This document shows positions 21,492 to 30,358 of a DNA stretch of 64,000 bases, in pieces; position 1 is the stretch's first letter; every line of letters starts with the position of its first letter. A program made the translations under genes and the position numbers. The stretch comes from Thermotoga petrophila RKU-1 (lineage in GTDB: Bacteria > Thermotogota > Thermotogae > Thermotogales > Thermotogaceae), in assembly GCF_000016785.1 (NCBI RefSeq), contig NC_009486.1:868001-932000 (forward strand). The letters are read 5' to 3'. The notes under the pieces are model-generated. The model searched no databases, was not told where the DNA came from, and worked only from the letters and a program-made list of their open reading frames with translations.

Positions 21492-23516
21492 GTGGACTAC
21501 AGGATGTGCTGGCTGGAGTACAGAGGTCTACCAGCTGACGTTGCCAAAAAACTCAAAGACTGGTTTTCAAGTGTTTCCATTCTGGAACCCGGTTCCTCAG
21601 TTTTGAAAGATGAGATCAGAAGGTTTTCTGAAAGATCGATTGGTATCACTCCCGGATTTTATTCCAGACCTCTGAAGAAAGAAAAATACATCATGGTGGG
21701 GCGTTTGGAATCCCTTCCCATCAAGTTCGATGAGAATCTTGGTGAGGAAGGTTTCATGCTGAGAACGCTCGAGTGGAACGGTTCGAAAATCCTGCTTGTA
21801 ACTGGCGAAACAAAGAAGGCGCTTGTTTACGGGATTTTTGATTTGATGAAGATAATAAGACTTGGTGAAGATATCGAGAAGATGAACGTCCTGGAGAAGC
21901 CGAAAGCGAAATTTCGTATGCTTAACCACTGTGACAACCTCGATGGAACGATCGAGAGAGGATACGCAGGGAACTCCATTTTTTTCAAAGACAACAGAAT
22001 TATCATAAATCAGAGAACGAAAGACTACGCCAGACTCTTAGCCTCAATAGGTATAAACGGTGTTGTTATAAACAACGTGAACGTCAAAAAGCGAGAAGTT
22101 TACTTGATAGACTCTATCTACCTTAAAAGATTGAAAAAGTTGGCTGATATCTTCAGAGAGTATGGAATTAAGATCTATCTAAGTATAAACTTCGCTTCCC
22201 CTGTTTATCTGAGAGGGCTGGATACGGCCGATCCCCTCGACGAAAGAGTGGCGCACTGGTGGAGAGAAAAAGCAAGGGAAATATACGATCATATTCCAGA
22301 TTTTGGAGGGTTTCTTGTCAAAGCCGATTCTGAGTTCAATCCTGGACCGCACATGTTTGGCAGAACACACGCAGAAGGCGCAAACATGCTTGCAAGGGCG
22401 CTGGCACCGTTCGGTGGGGTAGTAATATGGAGGGCTTTCGTTTACAACTGCCTCCAGGACTGGAGAGATTACAAAACGGACAGAGCAAAGGCGGCTTATG
22501 ACAATTTCAAGCCTCTTGATGGGCAGTTCGACGACAACGTGATCATTCAAATAAAGTATGGTCCTATGGATTTTCAGGTGAGAGAACCCGTCAATCCGCT
22601 TTTCGGAGGAATGGAGAGGACAAATCAAATTCTTGAGCTTCAAATCACGCAGGAATACACGGGTCAGCAGATTCATCTGTGTTTTTTAGGAAACCTCTGG
22701 AAGGAGATACTGGAATTCGATACATTTGCGAAGGGTGAGGGTTCTTACGTGAAGAGAATCGTGGATGGAACTCTCTTTGATCGCAAAAACAATGGTTTTG
22801 CCGGAGTATCAAACGTTGGTGACAGTGTGAACTGGACGGGCCACGATCTCGCTCAGGCGAATTTATACGCGTTCGGAAGACTTGCGTGGAATCCCGATGA
22901 AGAAATCGAAAGGATAGTTGAAGAATGGATAAAACTCACTTTCGGCGATGACGAGAAGGTTCTGGAAAATGTTTCATACATGTTGATGAAATCCCACAGG
23001 ACGTATGAGAAATACACCACTCCGTTCGGGTTGGGATGGATGGTGAATCCTGGTCACCACTACGGTCCAAATCCGGAGGGATACGAATATTCGAAATGGG
23101 GCACTTACCATAGAGCCAACTGGGAAGCGATCGGTGTCGATAGAACTTCCAGAGGCACTGGTTACACCCTTCAATACCATTCACCGTGGAAAGAGATATA
23201 CGATGATATCAACACGTGTCCCGAGGATCTTCTTCTTTTCTTCCACAGGGTACGATACGATCATCGTTTGAAATCCGGAAAGACACTCCTCCAGACGATA
23301 TACGATCTCCACTTTGAAGGGGTGGAGGAAGTAGAAGAATTCATAAAGAAATGGGAGGAACTGAAAGACAGGGTACCACCAGACATTTTTGAGAGAGTGA
23401 AAGAGCGTCTTCATATGCAACTCGAACACGCGAAGGAGTGGCGTGATGTAATCAACACATACTTTTACAGGAGAACGGGTATCCCTGATGAGAAGGGAAG
23501 AAAGATATATCCGTGA
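21492..23516 (+). CDS. aguA: Alpha-glucuronidase, GH67
   Basis: 674-aa cytoplasmic enzyme, no signal peptide, removing (4-O-methyl)glucuronic acid from the non-reducing end of xylo-oligosaccharides. The released uronate can enter the uxaC/uxuB/uxuA route in this same window. GH67 landmarks are [20 protein letters not shown] in the barrel and the later [20 protein letters not shown] and REPVNP segments that hold the catalytic acids. The frame is open well upstream, but GTG 21492 is eight bases after AAGGAGG and gives the family length. Confidence 0.95.
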
Positions 23517-24107
23517 TCAGATTGCTCCTCCTTCTTCTTGATATATGACCTCCCATTCGAAATTGTCTATGTAGAAGTCGAGTGTGGCGGGTTCCGAAGC
23601 ACAAACACCGAGTAGATATCTTTCGACATTGTCAAGATCAGGGACGGTCGTGGTACCTTCCACGGTCGTCCATTCGTTTTTCTCCAAAAGAGCCGTGGCT
23701 ATCTTTGTGAGTGAGGTGCTGCCGCCGGTTTCTTCATAGATGTTCATAGTGACAGTCGCCTGGTCTTCTCTGGTTTGAAGTATGTCGATATAAAACTTAA
23801 CGATGTCTCCTTTGAAAGCTTTTCCTTCAAGGAGCTTCTTTAGATCGAACCACACGCTGATGAAACCGGTGACATCTGTTGAAGAAGGAGAAACGTAGAG
23901 AACCGTTCCGTGTTGATCGGATTCGGGCAAACTGTTGTCCACAACAGTAGTAATTGTTGATTCTGGAGATTCTTCTTCGACAACGTTCTCAAACAATGTC
24001 TCCTCTGAAAACTCTCCAGTACCTGGTGGGGTTTGGAAAGTCGTGGTCAACATGCATCCCGCGAGAATAAAACTGAACAGAATAGCAGAAATCAAAAGAA
24101 CTTTCAT
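23517..24107 (-). CDS. Exported lipoprotein with beta-sandwich domain
   Basis: 196 aa. The lipobox LAGC puts the lipidated cysteine at residue 17. A Thr/Ser/Glu-rich linker (to about residue 60) leads to a jelly-roll-like domain ending in LDFYIDNFEWEVI, a strand typical of CBM4/9/22-type folds. Function unknown; carbohydrate or surface binding is possible. The frame extends upstream, but ATG 24107 has a GGGGGG site and overlaps the esterase stop by 4 nt. It is the last gene of the feoAB operon, so its synthesis may respond to iron. Confidence 0.75.
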   Translation of the reverse strand: MKVLLISAILFSFILAGCMLTTTFQTPPGTGEFSEETLFENVVEEESPESTITTVVDNSLPESDQHGTVLYVSPSSTDVTGFISVWFDLKKLLEGKAFKGDIVKFYIDILQTREDQATVTMNIYEETGGSTSLTKIATALLEKNEWTTVEGTTTVPDLDNVERYLLGVCASEPATLDFYIDNFEWEVIYQEEGGAI

Positions 24108-25198
24108 TGCGATCCCCCCTTCTTTAAAATCACCTCGTTTTCCAGTATTCTGAAAAGAATATATGAAAGCCCTTCGAGAATTATATCTCTTCTTTTGTAA
24201 AGATCTTCGTGATCGGCGTCGAAAACGAGCACATTTCCTCCGTATGAGGCACTTTTGCATGGTACCATTCCATCCGTTTCTTCAAAATCGTCTTTCATTG
24301 TGGAAACACTGCTTACAAGAAGTTTCAAACCAATTAATCCCAGGGTGTCCCACGCAGATGTTGTCATGATGTTCAGCAGAATTCCTGGAATACTTTCTAC
24401 ACTATCGAGGGAAATAGTTCCGACCAAGTTCACAAACGGAACATTTGAAAAATCCAGTGGTTTTCTTTGCCAGAGAAGATATCTGTATCCTGGAGCGTAC
24501 GTTGCGCTGAAACCCGCGTAGGATATCAGAAGAGCCGCTCTGAGATTTTCTGCGGTCTTTTTGTCTATGAGAAACTCCTCTTCGTATCGATCTGGATCGG
24601 TGAACAGAACGTTGGCAAGTGGACTTCCTAAGTGAGGCGTTCCCGCGAAGATTATCCCTTTCACGTTTCCAGGGTGCTTAGCAGCGATATGCTCTGCTAT
24701 TATTCCTCCCATGCTGTGTGCGAATATGATGATGTTCTCCATATCTTTTGTGAGATCGATGAATCTTTCGGCTGACTTTTCCGGATCTGCAAGAAGAGTT
24801 GGGTAGATAAACAGATAGACGTTTATTCTCAGTCTTTCTCCTATTTCCTCGAACACCTTCTCAATCTCTTTCTTGTACTCGGTCATCTCGCCTGTGTATT
24901 CCCTCGGATCCATTCCGTGTATCACTACGAGATTGAGAGAAGAACCTTCTTTGTGTATTTCAGCGAGTTTTTCCTCTGGTTTTTGCCATTTTATCACTTT
25001 TCCAATGACGGTGGCGTTGGTTTCAAGGAGAGGAGGATTGTACGGATCAACGGTTCCATCGTACACCATCCTGAATATACACCAGTCCCCAGCGTAGTAC
25101 TCCACCACATCGTAGAGTGTGGGTGTAGATTCCAGAATGATGTTGAAGCCAAACATTGATACACCAAGAAGGACGATCGCAACCAGAAAGAACCTCAT
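24104..25198 (-). CDS. Exported alpha/beta-hydrolase (esterase/lipase-like)
   Basis: 364 aa with an N-terminal signal or anchor (MRFFLVAIVLLGVSMFGF). The nucleophile elbow is AHSMGG with S162, an oxyanion-type VVIHGMDP lies at about 91-98, and a late DADHEDL (about 328-334) supplies the probable histidine. It fits triacylglycerol-lipase-like esterases (TM0053 by order). Both ends overlap neighbours by 4 nt, so it is translationally coupled into the feo operon, unusual company for an esterase. Substrate unknown. Confidence 0.85.
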   Translation of the reverse strand: MRFFLVAIVLLGVSMFGFNIILESTPTLYDVVEYYAGDWCIFRMVYDGTVDPYNPPLLETNATVIGKVIKWQKPEEKLAEIHKEGSSLNLVVIHGMDPREYTGEMTEYKKEIEKVFEEIGERLRINVYLFIYPTLLADPEKSAERFIDLTKDMENIIIFAHSMGGIIAEHIAAKHPGNVKGIIFAGTPHLGSPLANVLFTDPDRYEEEFLIDKKTAENLRAALLISYAGFSATYAPGYRYLLWQRKPLDFSNVPFVNLVGTISLDSVESIPGILLNIMTTSAWDTLGLIGLKLLVSSVSTMKDDFEETDGMVPCKSASYGGNVLVFDADHEDLYKRRDIILEGLSYILFRILENEVILKKGGSQ

Positions 25199-25527
25199 TC
25201 TGATCTCATCCTTTTCTTGAATATCATGAAAAGTGCCACCAATCCCGTTAGAAAGAGGGTGTAGTGTCCCGCTGACAGGGTGATTCTTTCTTCTCCAAGA
25301 ATGGGTCTCAAAAACCCTGTCAGGTACTCAAGAAGACTCATTCCAGCGAAAAACAAAACAATGATACTTCCAACGAACATGTGTGCATGGTACTTTTCTT
25401 TAGAGATCTCGAATTGTCCAGCAAGAAAAACAAGCGAGACGACTCCCAGGAAGATGCCGAACAGAAGATCGATCTTCATGTAAAGGATACCAGAAATCAG
25501 GGTTAATATGAACATCAAAATGTTCAT
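25195..25527 (-). CDS. Small hypothetical membrane protein
   Basis: 110 aa, not recognised. Helices at about residues 2-20 (ILMFILTLISGILYMKI), 22-38, 50-68 and 80-100, with a basic tail. ATG 25527 overlaps the feoB stop by 4 nt, and its own stop overlaps the esterase start by 4 nt. It is not a FeoC-like winged helix. A helper for FeoB or the esterase is a guess from position only. Confidence 0.72.
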   Translation of the reverse strand: MNILMFILTLISGILYMKIDLLFGIFLGVVSLVFLAGQFEISKEKYHAHMFVGSIIVLFFAGMSLLEYLTGFLRPILGEERITLSAGHYTLFLTGLVALFMIFKKRMRSE

Positions 25528-27533
25528 ATTAGCATCACCACCAGTTTTCCAACATAGAATACGATCAGGGATAGCACATACGCAATTGAAAGGGAATATC
25601 CAATTGAGAAAAGGGTCCACTTCAAACTTCCCGTTTCAGAATATATGGTTGCGATAGTTGCGAAACACGGTATGTACGCCATGACGAAAATGAGAAACGC
25701 TATGGCAGACACAGGGTCCATTTCCGCAGACAGAGCTTCCTTTGCTCCCAGGAATGTTTCTTCCTCGAATCCATAGAGCATCGACATAGTCGAGACAACA
25801 ACTTCCTTCGCTACGGCCCCGTAGAAGAGCGATGTCACTATCTTCCAGGAGTATCCAAAAGGCTTGAAGATCCACTCCAAGGATTTTCCTATCATCGCGG
25901 AGAAGCTGTTCTCAATGTCCCCGGCTGCTGGGAAATAACTCAAAACCCAGATAAGAATGGCAGAAACGAATATGATCGTTCCGGCTTTTTTCAGAAAGTG
26001 CTTTCCTCTGTTCCAGGTGTAGATGTACAGATTCTTGAGTGTGGGCATTCTGTACCTCGGCAGTTCCAGAATGAGTGGTGAAGTCCTTCCCCTGTAGAAC
26101 AGCCAGTTTATGACAACCGATGAAAGGAGGGTTATCAGAATACTCAGAGAGTAGATTATAAAGAGCATGGCAGCGGAGGACTCAGGGAAGAAGATTCTCA
26201 GAATGAGAAGGTACACTGGAAGTCTTGCGCTGCAGCTGATAAAGGGAGTGATGAGGATGGTCACGAGCCTTTCTCTTGGATCATCTATGGCACGGGTGGC
26301 CATGATAGAAGGTACATTACATCCGAATCCGAGTATGAGGGACATGAACGCTCTACCGCTCAGTTTGAATTTTTCCATGATTCTGTCCATCACGAACGCG
26401 GCTCTGGGGAGATAACCGCTTTCTTCCAGAAAACCGAGTGCGAGGAACATGGCGAAGATGTTTGGTGTGAACACCAGAACACTTCCCACTCCACCAATGA
26501 TTCCATCGGATATCAGCGATGTGAAAGCGTTCTCTCCGAAAGTGTTGACAACAGCGGATCCCAACTGGGAAAAGAGCAGATCCAGCAAGTCCGAAAAGAC
26601 CTGCGCGATGTCGAATGTGAACTTGAAAACGAGATACATGAGGGCAAAGAACAGCGGAAACGAAAGAAACTTGTGGGTCAGGACATGATCTATGGCTTCG
26701 GATAGAGAGAGAGATTTCGACCCTGCATCTGCAAAGGCTTCTTTAACAACGTTTTCAACGTATTCTCTCTTTCTTTTCGCTATGAGAAGGCGATAACCGA
26801 TCCTTTCTTCTTCGCTCAGCTCTGGAAGACCAAGCTTCACGCCCTCTGAGTAAAATTCCGGGTCCCCCGAGAGGTATTTCAAAGCGAAATACCGCGGGTT
26901 GATTCTCAACTTTTTATCTCTGAGAAAATTTTCTACCTTCTTTATCTCAGATTCTACTTTTTCTCCGTAATCCAGAATCATTCTGTGAAGAATCGTGTTT
27001 TTTTGTGCGTACTCCACAATCTTTTCTTTGAGTTCCTCCAGACCCTCTCCAGTAACAGAAGAGGTGAAAACCACGGGGATTCCCAGATGTTTCTGAAGTT
27101 CATAACGATCGATTTTCATTCCCGTCTTTTTCGCTTCGTCTATGGCTGTCATGGCAAGGATAACTTTTTTTTCCATTTCTAGTATTTCAAGAAGTAGATA
27201 CAGACTCTGCTCTGGATTGACAGAGTCCGCGACGAGTATCACAAGATCAGCGTCACCTTTCAGTAAATAGTCACGGGCTATCTTTTCGTCTATCGAGGAA
27301 TATCCGAGCGAGTAAGTTCCAGGAAGGTCTATCAGATTGATGGTGTACCCTTTGTATGTGAAGACACCTTCCTTTTTCTCAACCGTCACGCCGGGCCAGT
27401 TGGCGACGTACTGTTTCGTGCCGGTCAGGGCATTGAAAAGACTGGTCTTTCCAACGTTTGGGCATCCCGCAAGAGCGACTTTCACGATTTTTTGAGAAAT
27501 CTCACTTCTGCGGGTGAGACTCTTCACCGGCAT
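25524..27533 (-). CDS. feoB: Ferrous iron transporter FeoB
   Basis: 669-aa inner-membrane Fe(II) importer. The N-terminal G domain has G1 GCPNVGKTS, G3 DLPGTYSLG and a G4-position TAIDEA where canonical NxxD is altered. A helical spacer follows, then two Gate domains with conserved cysteines (GFGCNVPSIMATR and later YIPCFATIATI). ATG 27533 has GAGGAGGG eight bases upstream and overlaps the feoA 3' end by 32 nt. The operon is led by a Fur-type box. Confidence 0.97.
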   Translation of the reverse strand: MPVKSLTRRSEISQKIVKVALAGCPNVGKTSLFNALTGTKQYVANWPGVTVEKKEGVFTYKGYTINLIDLPGTYSLGYSSIDEKIARDYLLKGDADLVILVADSVNPEQSLYLLLEILEMEKKVILAMTAIDEAKKTGMKIDRYELQKHLGIPVVFTSSVTGEGLEELKEKIVEYAQKNTILHRMILDYGEKVESEIKKVENFLRDKKLRINPRYFALKYLSGDPEFYSEGVKLGLPELSEEERIGYRLLIAKRKREYVENVVKEAFADAGSKSLSLSEAIDHVLTHKFLSFPLFFALMYLVFKFTFDIAQVFSDLLDLLFSQLGSAVVNTFGENAFTSLISDGIIGGVGSVLVFTPNIFAMFLALGFLEESGYLPRAAFVMDRIMEKFKLSGRAFMSLILGFGCNVPSIMATRAIDDPRERLVTILITPFISCSARLPVYLLILRIFFPESSAAMLFIIYSLSILITLLSSVVINWLFYRGRTSPLILELPRYRMPTLKNLYIYTWNRGKHFLKKAGTIIFVSAILIWVLSYFPAAGDIENSFSAMIGKSLEWIFKPFGYSWKIVTSLFYGAVAKEVVVSTMSMLYGFEEETFLGAKEALSAEMDPVSAIAFLIFVMAYIPCFATIATIYSETGSLKWTLFSIGYSLSIAYVLSLIVFYVGKLVVMLI

Positions 27534-27966
27534 CGCTGACCCTCCTCACCCATATCTTGGTTGCTTCGCCGTATCCTAAATCTATTTCCCTTCCTTCTAT
27601 GTAGTATCTCCTTCCTGAAACCTGTATTTTCTTACCTGATTCGATTCCAAGGTTCTTCATTCTAAAAAGAAATCTCCTTCCACCATTTAGTTTGGTTATC
27701 TCGTAAGTTCCATCGTCTGCAAGGATCAAAGGCAATTCTCCTCCCACGACTTCCACTTCTATGAGATCCGCTTCTCTTTTTCTCAATGTGATGTTCCTAT
27801 TCCCAATCTTGCAAACGATGGGATCTCCCAGGGGAGCGACTTGAACGATTTCTATTTCTTCACCTGGAACGAATCCCATTCCCACGAGTTTTTCATGCAG
27901 TTCTCCGGAAACTTCGAGTCTTTTTATTCTTGCGGGAACTCCTGGTACGAGTCTTGAAAGTTTCAC
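27502..27966 (-). CDS. feoA: Tandem two-domain FeoA-like protein
   Basis: 154 aa, about twice the usual FeoA length. Two SH3-like FeoA domains are visible. The first (about 1-74) has LVPGVPARIKRLEV, the KLVGMGFVPGEEIEIVQVAPLGDP core and IGNRNITLRKREADLI. The second (about 80-147) has a shorter ITKLNGG start, RMKNLGIESGKKIQVSGR and an EIDLGYGEATKIWV end. It probably regulates FeoB. Start is GTG 27966 with a GGGGGC-rich site. It is the first gene after the Fur-type palindrome. Confidence 0.9.
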   Translation of the reverse strand: MKLSRLVPGVPARIKRLEVSGELHEKLVGMGFVPGEEIEIVQVAPLGDPIVCKIGNRNITLRKREADLIEVEVVGGELPLILADDGTYEITKLNGGRRFLFRMKNLGIESGKKIQVSGRRYYIEGREIDLGYGEATKIWVRRVSDAGEESHPQK

Positions 27967-27979
27967 GGCTCTGCCCCCT

Positions 27980-28004
27980 TTTTTTGAGAATGATTCTCAA
28001 AAAA
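27980..28004 (-). promoter_or_regulatory. Fur-type operator upstream of feoAB
   Basis: Perfect 12-1-12 palindrome centred at 27992: TTTTTTGAGAAT (27980-27991) and ATTCTCAAAAAA (27993-28004). Its core TGAGAAT-N-ATTCTCA closely resembles the 7-1-7 Fur box of Gram-positive bacteria (TGATAAT-N-ATTATCA). It lies just past the predicted start of transcription, 14 bases before the feoA GTG, where a bound repressor would block it. Confidence 0.85.
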
Positions 28005-28013
28005 TTCAGATTA

Positions 28014-28043
28014 ATTGTATCATCATCACATGGATGCTTTCAA
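28014..28043 (-). promoter_or_regulatory. feo operon promoter
   Basis: Minus-strand TTGAAA (28043-28038), 18-base spacer, TACAAT (28019-28014). Transcription would start about where the Fur-type palindrome begins. Confidence 0.65.
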
Positions 28044-28066: not shown

Positions 28067-28849
28067 CTATACGAGTCTTCTGACAAGCTTTATGGCATCC
28101 TGAGGGCAGACTTCATGGCAGACGTAGCATCTTATGCACTTCTGGTAGTCGATTCTCTGAGAGGAGATATCTATGGCCGAGGCGGGGCATCGTTCCTCGC
28201 AGAGCCGACACTTCACGCACTTTCTGGTGTCGATCTTTGGATACTTCACAAAGAACCTTGAAAAGGTTCTGGATAGTCTATCGAGGGTGGAGACGGTGGA
28301 AGGAAGTTGTATAGAAGCGTGGAACGTTCCCACAATTTCATAATCAGGAACTACTCTTCTTTTTCGAGCATGCTGAACCGTGTAAACAACATGATCTATT
28401 CCTAAAGCTTTGCAGACAGCGTCGTCGAGAGCAAAAGCATTTTTCGAAACAGCCACAAGGCCAAAATGTTTCTTTTTACCGTTTGTGGGTCCGTTTCCTT
28501 CCATACCCTCCACACCGTCGAGAATCGTGAGAACTGGAGACACGATTCGATGAATGTCTATCAACAGATTCGCGAAATCGTCGTAATTCTTTGCCCTCAT
28601 GTGCCAGGAAGATTTTTCGAGACCCACCACACATCCGAAGGTGTTTTTCACTCCGAGTGTCATAACCATTTGGGAGTGGGTCTTCAATTTTGGAAGATTA
28701 ACCACCTTGTCTGCTTCAAGAACCTTCCTGGAAATTTTTATCTTCTGAAACACTTCTCCGCTGACTTCCACAGGATCATCCAAAGGAACACATGGAACGC
28801 CCAGTCTTTCACAAACATCCTCAACACCTGTGACAGAAAAACAGCCTCG
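28067..28849 (-). pseudogene. DUF362 iron-sulfur protein, 3' portion of a disrupted gene
   Basis: About 260 codons. They cover the later part of a DUF362 protein (PKLKTHSQMVMTLGVKNTFG, then a ligand-binding-like region) and a C-terminal double [4Fe-4S] ferredoxin domain with CVKCRLCEERCP and CIRCYVCHEVCP. The usual N-terminus, ending in a KVLLKPN-like motif, is missing. It is found beyond the insertion sequence, at 30404-30499. Roughly 60 family residues between the two parts are absent, so the gene looks dead unless the remnant is translated from a TTG at 28852. The intact homologue at 39970-41043 gives a comparison. Confidence 0.8.
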
Positions 28850-28853
28850 CAAG

Positions 28854-28876
28854 CCCTTCCGCTTCAGGGGAACGGG
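28854..28876 (+). repeat. Left-end hairpin of the insertion sequence
   Basis: CCCTTCC (28854-28860) pairs with GGAA (28869-28872), bulged C (28873) and GGG (28874-28876). The loop and 3' arm CTTCAGGGGA match the right-end hairpin. Such bulged hairpins are what TnpA recognises. Confidence 0.6.
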
Positions 28877-28898
28877 TAAGAGGCTTGCTTGTTGGTCA

Positions 28899-29156
28899 TG
28901 TTCGTGTTATGATTGGGTGTTGTCGCTATCGATCCAACCGGATCATGTGCATCTTTTTGTTTCTGCGCCTCCTCGGTTAGCTCCGGCACAAATAGTCAAC
29001 CTGTTCAAAGGGGTGTCTTCAAAAAAGCTTCTCGAAAAATTCCCGCACCTGAGAACAAGAGAAGGATTGTGGAGCAGAACATACTATGTGGGCTCAGTGG
29101 GCACCGTTTCAGAAGAAACCATCAGGAGGTACATTGAAGAGTGTCAAGATATGTGA
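28899..29156 (+). pseudogene. tnpA: Y1 transposase TnpA, N-terminally truncated
   Basis: Remnant of the HUH single-strand transposase. The HUH pair is kept in QPDHVHLFVSAPP, the SSKKLLEKFPHL region follows, and a late YIEEC tyrosine is the probable nucleophile. Conserved sequence begins only at YDWVLSL (28908), about 30 bases after the left-end hairpin, so roughly 40 N-terminal residues are gone and no proper start is left. The 3' end overlaps the tnpB start by 16 nt. Probably inactive; movement would need a TnpA in trans. Confidence 0.82.
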
Positions 29157-30358
29157 TCAGAACCTACAAAGTCCCTGTGCCGGTGGAATTGTATCCTTTG
29201 TGTTCCGAGCTGAACAGGATCGCCGCTCGGATCTACAACAAAACCATGTCGCTGGTCAAAAAGATCAAAAACAAGAAAGGTTTTTGGCTCTCACCGAACA
29301 CAGCGCAAAAATACATCCTTCGCTGGTCGAGCGCTATCGATATCCACACTCACTCCAAACAAGCCATGGTCCAGCTGTACTTTCAGGCACTCAATAGCTA
29401 CTTTGTTGCAGTCAAAACAAATCCACATGCAAAACCGCCATACAAGAGGAAAAATTTTCTGCCGTTCATTTGGAAAAATCAAGCCATCAAGCTTTTGCCA
29501 GATGGGAAGGTCAAGCTCTCGATGGGACGCAATCGAGAGCCATTTGTAATCCCCACAACGTTGCCAGCCGGTACAACAATCAGGCAAGCCAAGTTGGTTT
29601 ACGAAGCCGGCCGGTATTATCTTCACCTTGCGATAGAGGTGAAGAGTGAGCACAAGAGAGGCCAAAGCCAGAAAGTTATGTCCGTAGACGTCGGAATACT
29701 CCGCCCGATAACCTGTTTCGATGGTTCTGAGGTGATTTCATATCACGGTGGTGTTCTCAACAGCATACTCAGATACCGAAACAAAAGACTAGCAGATATT
29801 CAGCGGGCTTTGAGTCGATGCCAAAAGGGCTCACGAAGGTATAAAAAACTGTCGAGAGCCAAAAGAAGGGTGCTGTACAAGACGAGAAACCAAATCAACG
29901 ACGTGCTCCACAAAATCACGAGCTACTTCATCGGTTTATGCGTGCAAAAGAACATAGGCACCATTGTCGTCGGAGACATTACGAACATAAGAGAACGCAC
30001 AAACGGCAACGATAATTTCAATCAAAAACTGCACCAATGGGCCTTCAGAAAGCTCATGAGCCAGATAGAATACAAAGCGCAAATATTCGGCATCGAGGTT
30101 GTGCGCATTTCTGAAGCGCATACAAGCAAAACGTGTCCTGTATGCGGCACTCAAAACAGGCCGTCTGGACGAAATTACAAGTGCGCCGGCTGCGGTTTTG
30201 AGTATCACAGGGACGGAGTGGGAGCAATCAACATTTGGAAAAGGTATCTTGGGACGAAGTCCCAAGTAGTAGCGGGCTTGGCACCCGCCAGAGGTGTGAG
30301 GTTTAACCCGCACCTCTGTGGCCATGGAGCGATTAGCGCTCCATGGAAGGCAGCCTAA
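29141..30358 (+). CDS. tnpB: TnpB RNA-guided nuclease (IS605 OrfB)
   Basis: 405 aa. The N-terminal part is helical with the usual TnpB wedge-like region. The RuvC-I aspartate is D183 in SVDVGI. The zinc ribbon uses C332/C335 (CPVCG) and C348/C351 (CAGCG). RuvC-III is D358 in HRDGVGAINIW. The RuvC-II position reads VVGDI (G278-D279) instead of the usual V-E-D-L, while a glutamate stands at E325 in SEAHTSKTC, like the rearranged-site TnpBs. Start is GTG 29141, 11 bases after GGAGG. Full length suggests it still works as a guided nuclease. Confidence 0.93.
   Translation: MSRYVIRTYKVPVPVELYPLCSELNRIAARIYNKTMSLVKKIKNKKGFWLSPNTAQKYILRWSSAIDIHTHSKQAMVQLYFQALNSYFVAVKTNPHAKPPYKRKNFLPFIWKNQAIKLLPDGKVKLSMGRNREPFVIPTTLPAGTTIRQAKLVYEAGRYYLHLAIEVKSEHKRGQSQKVMSVDVGILRPITCFDGSEVISYHGGVLNSILRYRNKRLADIQRALSRCQKGSRRYKKLSRAKRRVLYKTRNQINDVLHKITSYFIGLCVQKNIGTIVVGDITNIRERTNGNDNFNQKLHQWAFRKLMSQIEYKAQIFGIEVVRISEAHTSKTCPVCGTQNRPSGRNYKCAGCGFEYHRDGVGAINIWKRYLGTKSQVVAGLAPARGVRFNPHLCGHGAISAPWKAA

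Follow-up and report, generated by a model that had tools for sequence, protein, structure and literature searches.

FeoC is the small third protein of the gammaproteobacterial feo operon (PMC10353542). The window analysed here is a stretch of 64,000 nucleotides from a genome that is complete, of the Thermotoga type and 1,823,511 bases long. The operon it carries resembles the Feo system (FeoA, FeoB and FeoC) in that the genes of a FeoA and a FeoB homolog lie side by side behind a Fur-type box. It differs in its third gene, which encodes a membrane protein with an invariant histidine, and in the esterase and lipoprotein genes that come after it. While FeoC is a small cytoplasmic winged helix protein, the third protein here has four hydrophobic segments, and no FeoC was among its Pfam matches. 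A second point of comparison is PF12669, the FeoB-associated Cys-rich membrane protein, which is short and encoded just after feoB. The small membrane protein of the window (SMP) is likewise short and encoded just after feoB, but it is longer than the PF12669 protein, contains no cysteine and gave no match to the PF12669 model at E values up to 1. The five genes of the operon are presumably the counterparts of T. maritima TM0050-TM0054, and no description of them was found in the literature on TM0053, on Thermotoga Fur and Feo, on FeoD or on a small Feo membrane protein. The reading that we favor, and consider reasonably probable, is a Fur-controlled ferrous iron uptake operon with an ancestral core of feoA, feoB and SMP, to which the esterase and lipoprotein genes were added later and with which they are co-transcribed, SMP being a likely partner of FeoB.

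All five genes are co-directional on the minus strand and stand behind one promoter and one palindrome. The first gene, feoA (27502..27966), encodes 154 amino acids with two FeoA stretches (Pfam FeoA, E 9.6e-28), and feoB (25524..27533) encodes a ferrous iron transporter of 669 amino acids that scored 627 bits with TIGR00437, above the cut-off. They are followed by the genes of SMP (25195..25527; 110 amino acids, a FeoB-linked family), of a signal-peptide esterase (EST, 24104..25198; 364 amino acids) and of a lipoprotein (LPP, 23517..24107; 196 amino acids). The first-pass annotation had described the chain as linked by 4-nt overlaps throughout. This was correct for feoB/SMP, SMP/EST and EST/LPP, each of which is an ATGA overlap, whereas feoA and feoB overlap by 32 nt and the ATG of feoB is preceded by the ribosome site GGAGGG. 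The feoB/SMP and SMP/EST overlaps of 4 nt were kept in 7 of 7 Thermotoga-type genomes, a count in which the EST gene of one genome (L043) is assumed to start with GTG. In another genome of the same genus (G004; 99% complete, 150 contigs), the block of feoB, SMP and EST was missing as a whole, through loss or an assembly gap.

Several features were also observed at the two borders of the operon. The stop codons of LPP and of a convergent alpha-glucuronidase gene abut at 23516/23517, and the coding sequence of LPP contains a strong terminator-like hairpin for the latter gene (23642-23671, plus strand). On the other side, an IS200/IS605-like pair borders on the 5' end of a DUF362/ferredoxin gene (28830-30358 on the plus strand and 28067-28852 on the minus strand, respectively); the pair consists of a 108-aa transposase-like ORF and a 405-aa TnpB-like ORF. 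The product of the DUF362/ferredoxin gene has 261 amino acids here and in a T. maritima-like genome, compared with 307-310 in three other Thermotoga, and the gene was probably truncated by the IS200/IS605-like insertion.

The start of feoA is at 27966, and the promoter (28014..28043, minus strand) reads TTGAAA, an 18-nt spacer and the extended -10 element TGaTACAAT, with 28043 as its -35 end. Immediately downstream of it, and a little beyond the point where transcription is expected to start, is the palindrome TTTTTTGAGAATCATTCTCAAAAAA (27980..28004, minus strand), the predicted Fur-type operator. The promoter and the perfect 12-1-12 palindrome ahead of feoA were thus both found as first annotated, and the palindrome was present in 0 of 100 shuffled sequences. 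Its 12-nt arms are inflated by outer T/A runs, which differ among the Thermotoga genomes and one sister genus. The part conserved between species is a core of 15-17 bp, TTGAGAATNATTCTCAA, whose exact sequence occurs only once in the genome, at feoA. A 7-1-7 Fur-type palindrome, TGAGAATCATTCTCA, is located at the promoter, and it is conserved in relatives. The extended -10 element was kept as TGATATAATT in other Thermotoga. Between the -10 element and the ribosome site, the operator was equally placed in five other operon-bearing Thermotoga genomes and in the sister genus, and it was perfect in all of these except G005, in which one arm base was changed. Most of the inspected genomes of the family holding Thermosipho (f3) have TGAGAATNATTTTCA ahead of feoA, and family f2 has TGAGAATNAATCTCA. 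The operator is conserved ahead of feoA in three families and recurs across the order; at several loci from other genera of the Thermotogaceae (L071, L080-L082, L084 and L085), no operator was found ahead of feoA. Since the site is conserved before feoA, a Fur operator for feo is well supported at the sequence level.

The genome encodes three Fur-family proteins, which were assigned from sequence and neighboring genes as a canonical Fur, a PerR-like protein and a paralog adjoining a znuA-type gene, the last being probably Zur. With a canonical Fur encoded in the genome and the site kept before feoA across the order, the earlier reading of the palindrome as a Fur-type operator holds up, and we infer that Fur would be the paralog that binds it. 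It is improbable that the PerR-like paralog reads the operator instead and that the operon answers mainly to peroxide: although there are three paralogs to choose from and looser sites of the same kind precede two peroxiredoxin genes, the site at feoA is by far the best one and is conserved together with feoA, and one of the paralogs is a canonical Fur by sequence. The looser Fur/PerR-like sites are at G000:C1:116500, 532314, 512731 and 579483 (L219, L003, L226 and L004). They adjoin the promoters of two peroxiredoxin-like genes, of a gene resembling ammonium transporters and of a very short ORF that precedes a radical-SAM-like gene.

The first-pass annotation had taken a separate promoter for the esterase gene inside feoB to count against its reading. 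A scan for -10/-35 pairs from 28000 to 23500 gave no well-matched internal promoter, and nothing comparable to the promoter of feoA. Since there are one promoter, one operator and no good internal promoter, the five genes are likely to be co-regulated as one polycistron. With plentiful iron, Fur-Fe2+ bound to the operator, which follows closely on the start site, would block transcription, and the operon transcript would be made when iron is low.

The five-gene order, whose conservation the first-pass annotation had suggested checking, is kept only in part. The feoB-SMP pair was found across much of the phylum, whereas, of the genomes searched, only those of Thermotoga and one sister genus had EST behind SMP. 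In f3, the relatives of EST are flanked by housekeeping genes at a distance from feo, and feoB there has no EST behind it. Two conserved EST neighborhoods were recognized in this family, with gene names read from the sequences: one is polA-xseA-chromate transporter-sirtuin-EST-lipoprotein-rnhB-thyX-folD-yajC-secDF, and the other is located after a phoU-like gene. EST is elsewhere again in other Thermotogaceae genera. Two f3 genomes have second esterase copies (L061 and L062), which are lipoprotein-like with an extra N-terminal domain. LPP itself has a signal peptide with a lipobox (FILAGC near the N-terminus, read from the sequence) and a weak CBM_4_9-like jelly-roll signal (E 0.0055, below the cut-off). 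The gap between EST and LPP measures 16-33 nt in three Thermotoga genomes, and the sister genus has a nagA-like gene between the two. A small lipoprotein-like gene follows EST in f3, with no detected similarity to LPP. LPP appears to be more loosely attached to feo than EST, and EST itself appears to be a passenger or genus-specific addition whose link to iron is recent and lineage-specific.

These arrangements also bear on whether EST and LPP are envelope housekeeping genes that were parked behind feo by chance, have no iron role and receive extra expression from an internal promoter or by read-through. Irrespective of its locus, EST is mostly a single-copy gene in both the Thermotogaceae and the family of Thermosipho, and the variable spacing of LPP, together with its separation from EST by an unrelated nagA-like gene, would agree with such hitch-hiking. 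However, the scan gave no good internal promoter, and the strict genus-wide overlap suggests that coupling is tolerated or favored, so we regard hitch-hiking as rather unlikely. In the preferred reading of an ancestral core with later additions, a pre-existing exported lipase-type EST gene would have come behind SMP in the ancestor of Thermotoga and the sister genus. The LPP gene would, more loosely, have come behind SMP as well, both now being co-transcribed with feo.

EST has a hydrophobic signal at the N-terminus and the motifs HGMD, AHSMGG, GTPHLGSP, DGMVP and DHEDL. The GxSxG, DGxVP and His motifs make up the Ser-Asp-His triad of an alpha/beta-hydrolase of the lipase/esterase type, and the triad residues S162, D309 and H330 were invariant in 33 of 33 EST relatives. 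The Pfam matches were Abhydrolase_1, PGAP1 and Hydrolase_4. A structural model built from five sequences (pLDDT 63 overall, with several stretches of low confidence, 266-320 among them) gave fold matches to lipases and esterases within the alpha/beta hydrolases (E 1e-6 to 1e-7); the model shows only the superfamily. EST has no close solved structure. It shares the AHSMGG nucleophile motif, GTPHxGSP, DGxVP and DHxDL with Proteus lipase and others in the PDB and with PGAP1/Abhydrolase_1 in Pfam, but its identity to the bacterial alpha/beta-hydrolase lipases is only 11-16%. In a scan of genome contigs with an esterase profile, those of the matches listed that came from outside Thermotogae were only weak and of the lipase type.

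Ester-type iron chelates and surface lipids had both been suggested as substrates of EST. The first suggestion, that EST cuts siderophores outside the cytoplasmic membrane and frees iron for FeoB, fared poorly. The strictly kept 4-nt overlap between the SMP and EST genes of Thermotoga, the shared operator and two Peripla_BP_2 binding proteins in the genome are compatible with it. However, the Pfam scan of EST gave no siderophore-esterase domain (PF00756-type, Fes/IroE), the sister-family homologs were not near iron genes in the neighborhoods read, and the siderophore synthetase IucA/IucC is absent from the genome. In addition, FeoB transports free Fe2+ and an anaerobe has less need of chelates. 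A siderophore esterase was therefore rejected as the leading reading, and since the iron link of EST appears recent and lineage-specific, chelate cutting is argued against and very improbable. EST most likely hydrolyzes acyl esters, either of envelope lipids or external ones, instead of iron chelates; surface or other acyl esters are possible substrates.

The component of the operon most tightly tied to feoB is SMP, which was overlooked in the first reading. A search profile built from 20 SMP-type sequences gave a match in 74 of 103 Thermotogota genomes. SMP directly followed feoB in 55 of 55 inspected loci (the 20 and 35 further ones, the latter including distant families and having both genes on one strand), usually at -4. 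Other Thermotogaceae, f2 and part of f3 are among the groups with this arrangement and spacing. His49 was invariant (55/55) and preceded by Ala or Ser, and Gly37 was kept in 54 of the 55. Positive residues are located in the loop between segments 2 and 3 and at the C-terminus, on one side, which fits a four-segment N-in/C-in topology. The protein is predicted to be N-in/C-in, with His49 where the third membrane segment meets the cytoplasm. SMP had no convincing Pfam or NCBIfam family match and no PDB relative by sequence. Its fold search (single-sequence model, pLDDT 80) gave unspecific helical matches only, and no fold is named here. Outside the phylum, SMP was effectively absent from the 214 genomes searched, although distant relatives may exist: a mixed set of 15 genomes had none, and the one match in 199 genomes from the phylum of Halanaerobacter was weak and chance-like (37 residues, internal stop).

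Since genera g8, g11 and g12 keep feoB while SMP is absent, SMP is not indispensable for Feo. A gcvH-like gene was found near feoB in some genera without SMP. The candidate role of SMP as an unnamed Feo subunit is drawn from gene order, and adjacency does not prove a complex; no experiment bearing on SMP as a Feo partner was found in the literature. Translation of SMP would probably be coupled directly to that of feoB, and the protein would most likely serve as a membrane subunit or an assembly or regulatory partner of the FeoB transporter. A more specific proposal, which we put forward tentatively as something less than probable, is that SMP is a third kind of Feo partner, a phylum-wide integral membrane subunit whose His49 handles or gates Fe2+ leaving FeoB. 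The SMP start codon lies in a perfect inverted repeat (25504-25531; 12 nt, with a loop of 4 nt), through which translation of SMP could become dependent on that of feoB. This hairpin was not retained as a control element: only T. petrophila and T. maritima have it in perfect form, other Thermotoga have weaker versions, and the repeat can arise from the codons for MN..MF.

Taken as read from the DNA, the operon and its iron control appear real in outline and ordinary in kind. EST matters less; it would show an unrelated envelope gene drawn under Fur control in one lineage. The part deserving study is SMP, a candidate Feo partner through most of Thermotogota. With its position behind feoB over much of the phylum and its one invariant histidine, it is a concrete and testable candidate, and its thermostable source suits structural work.
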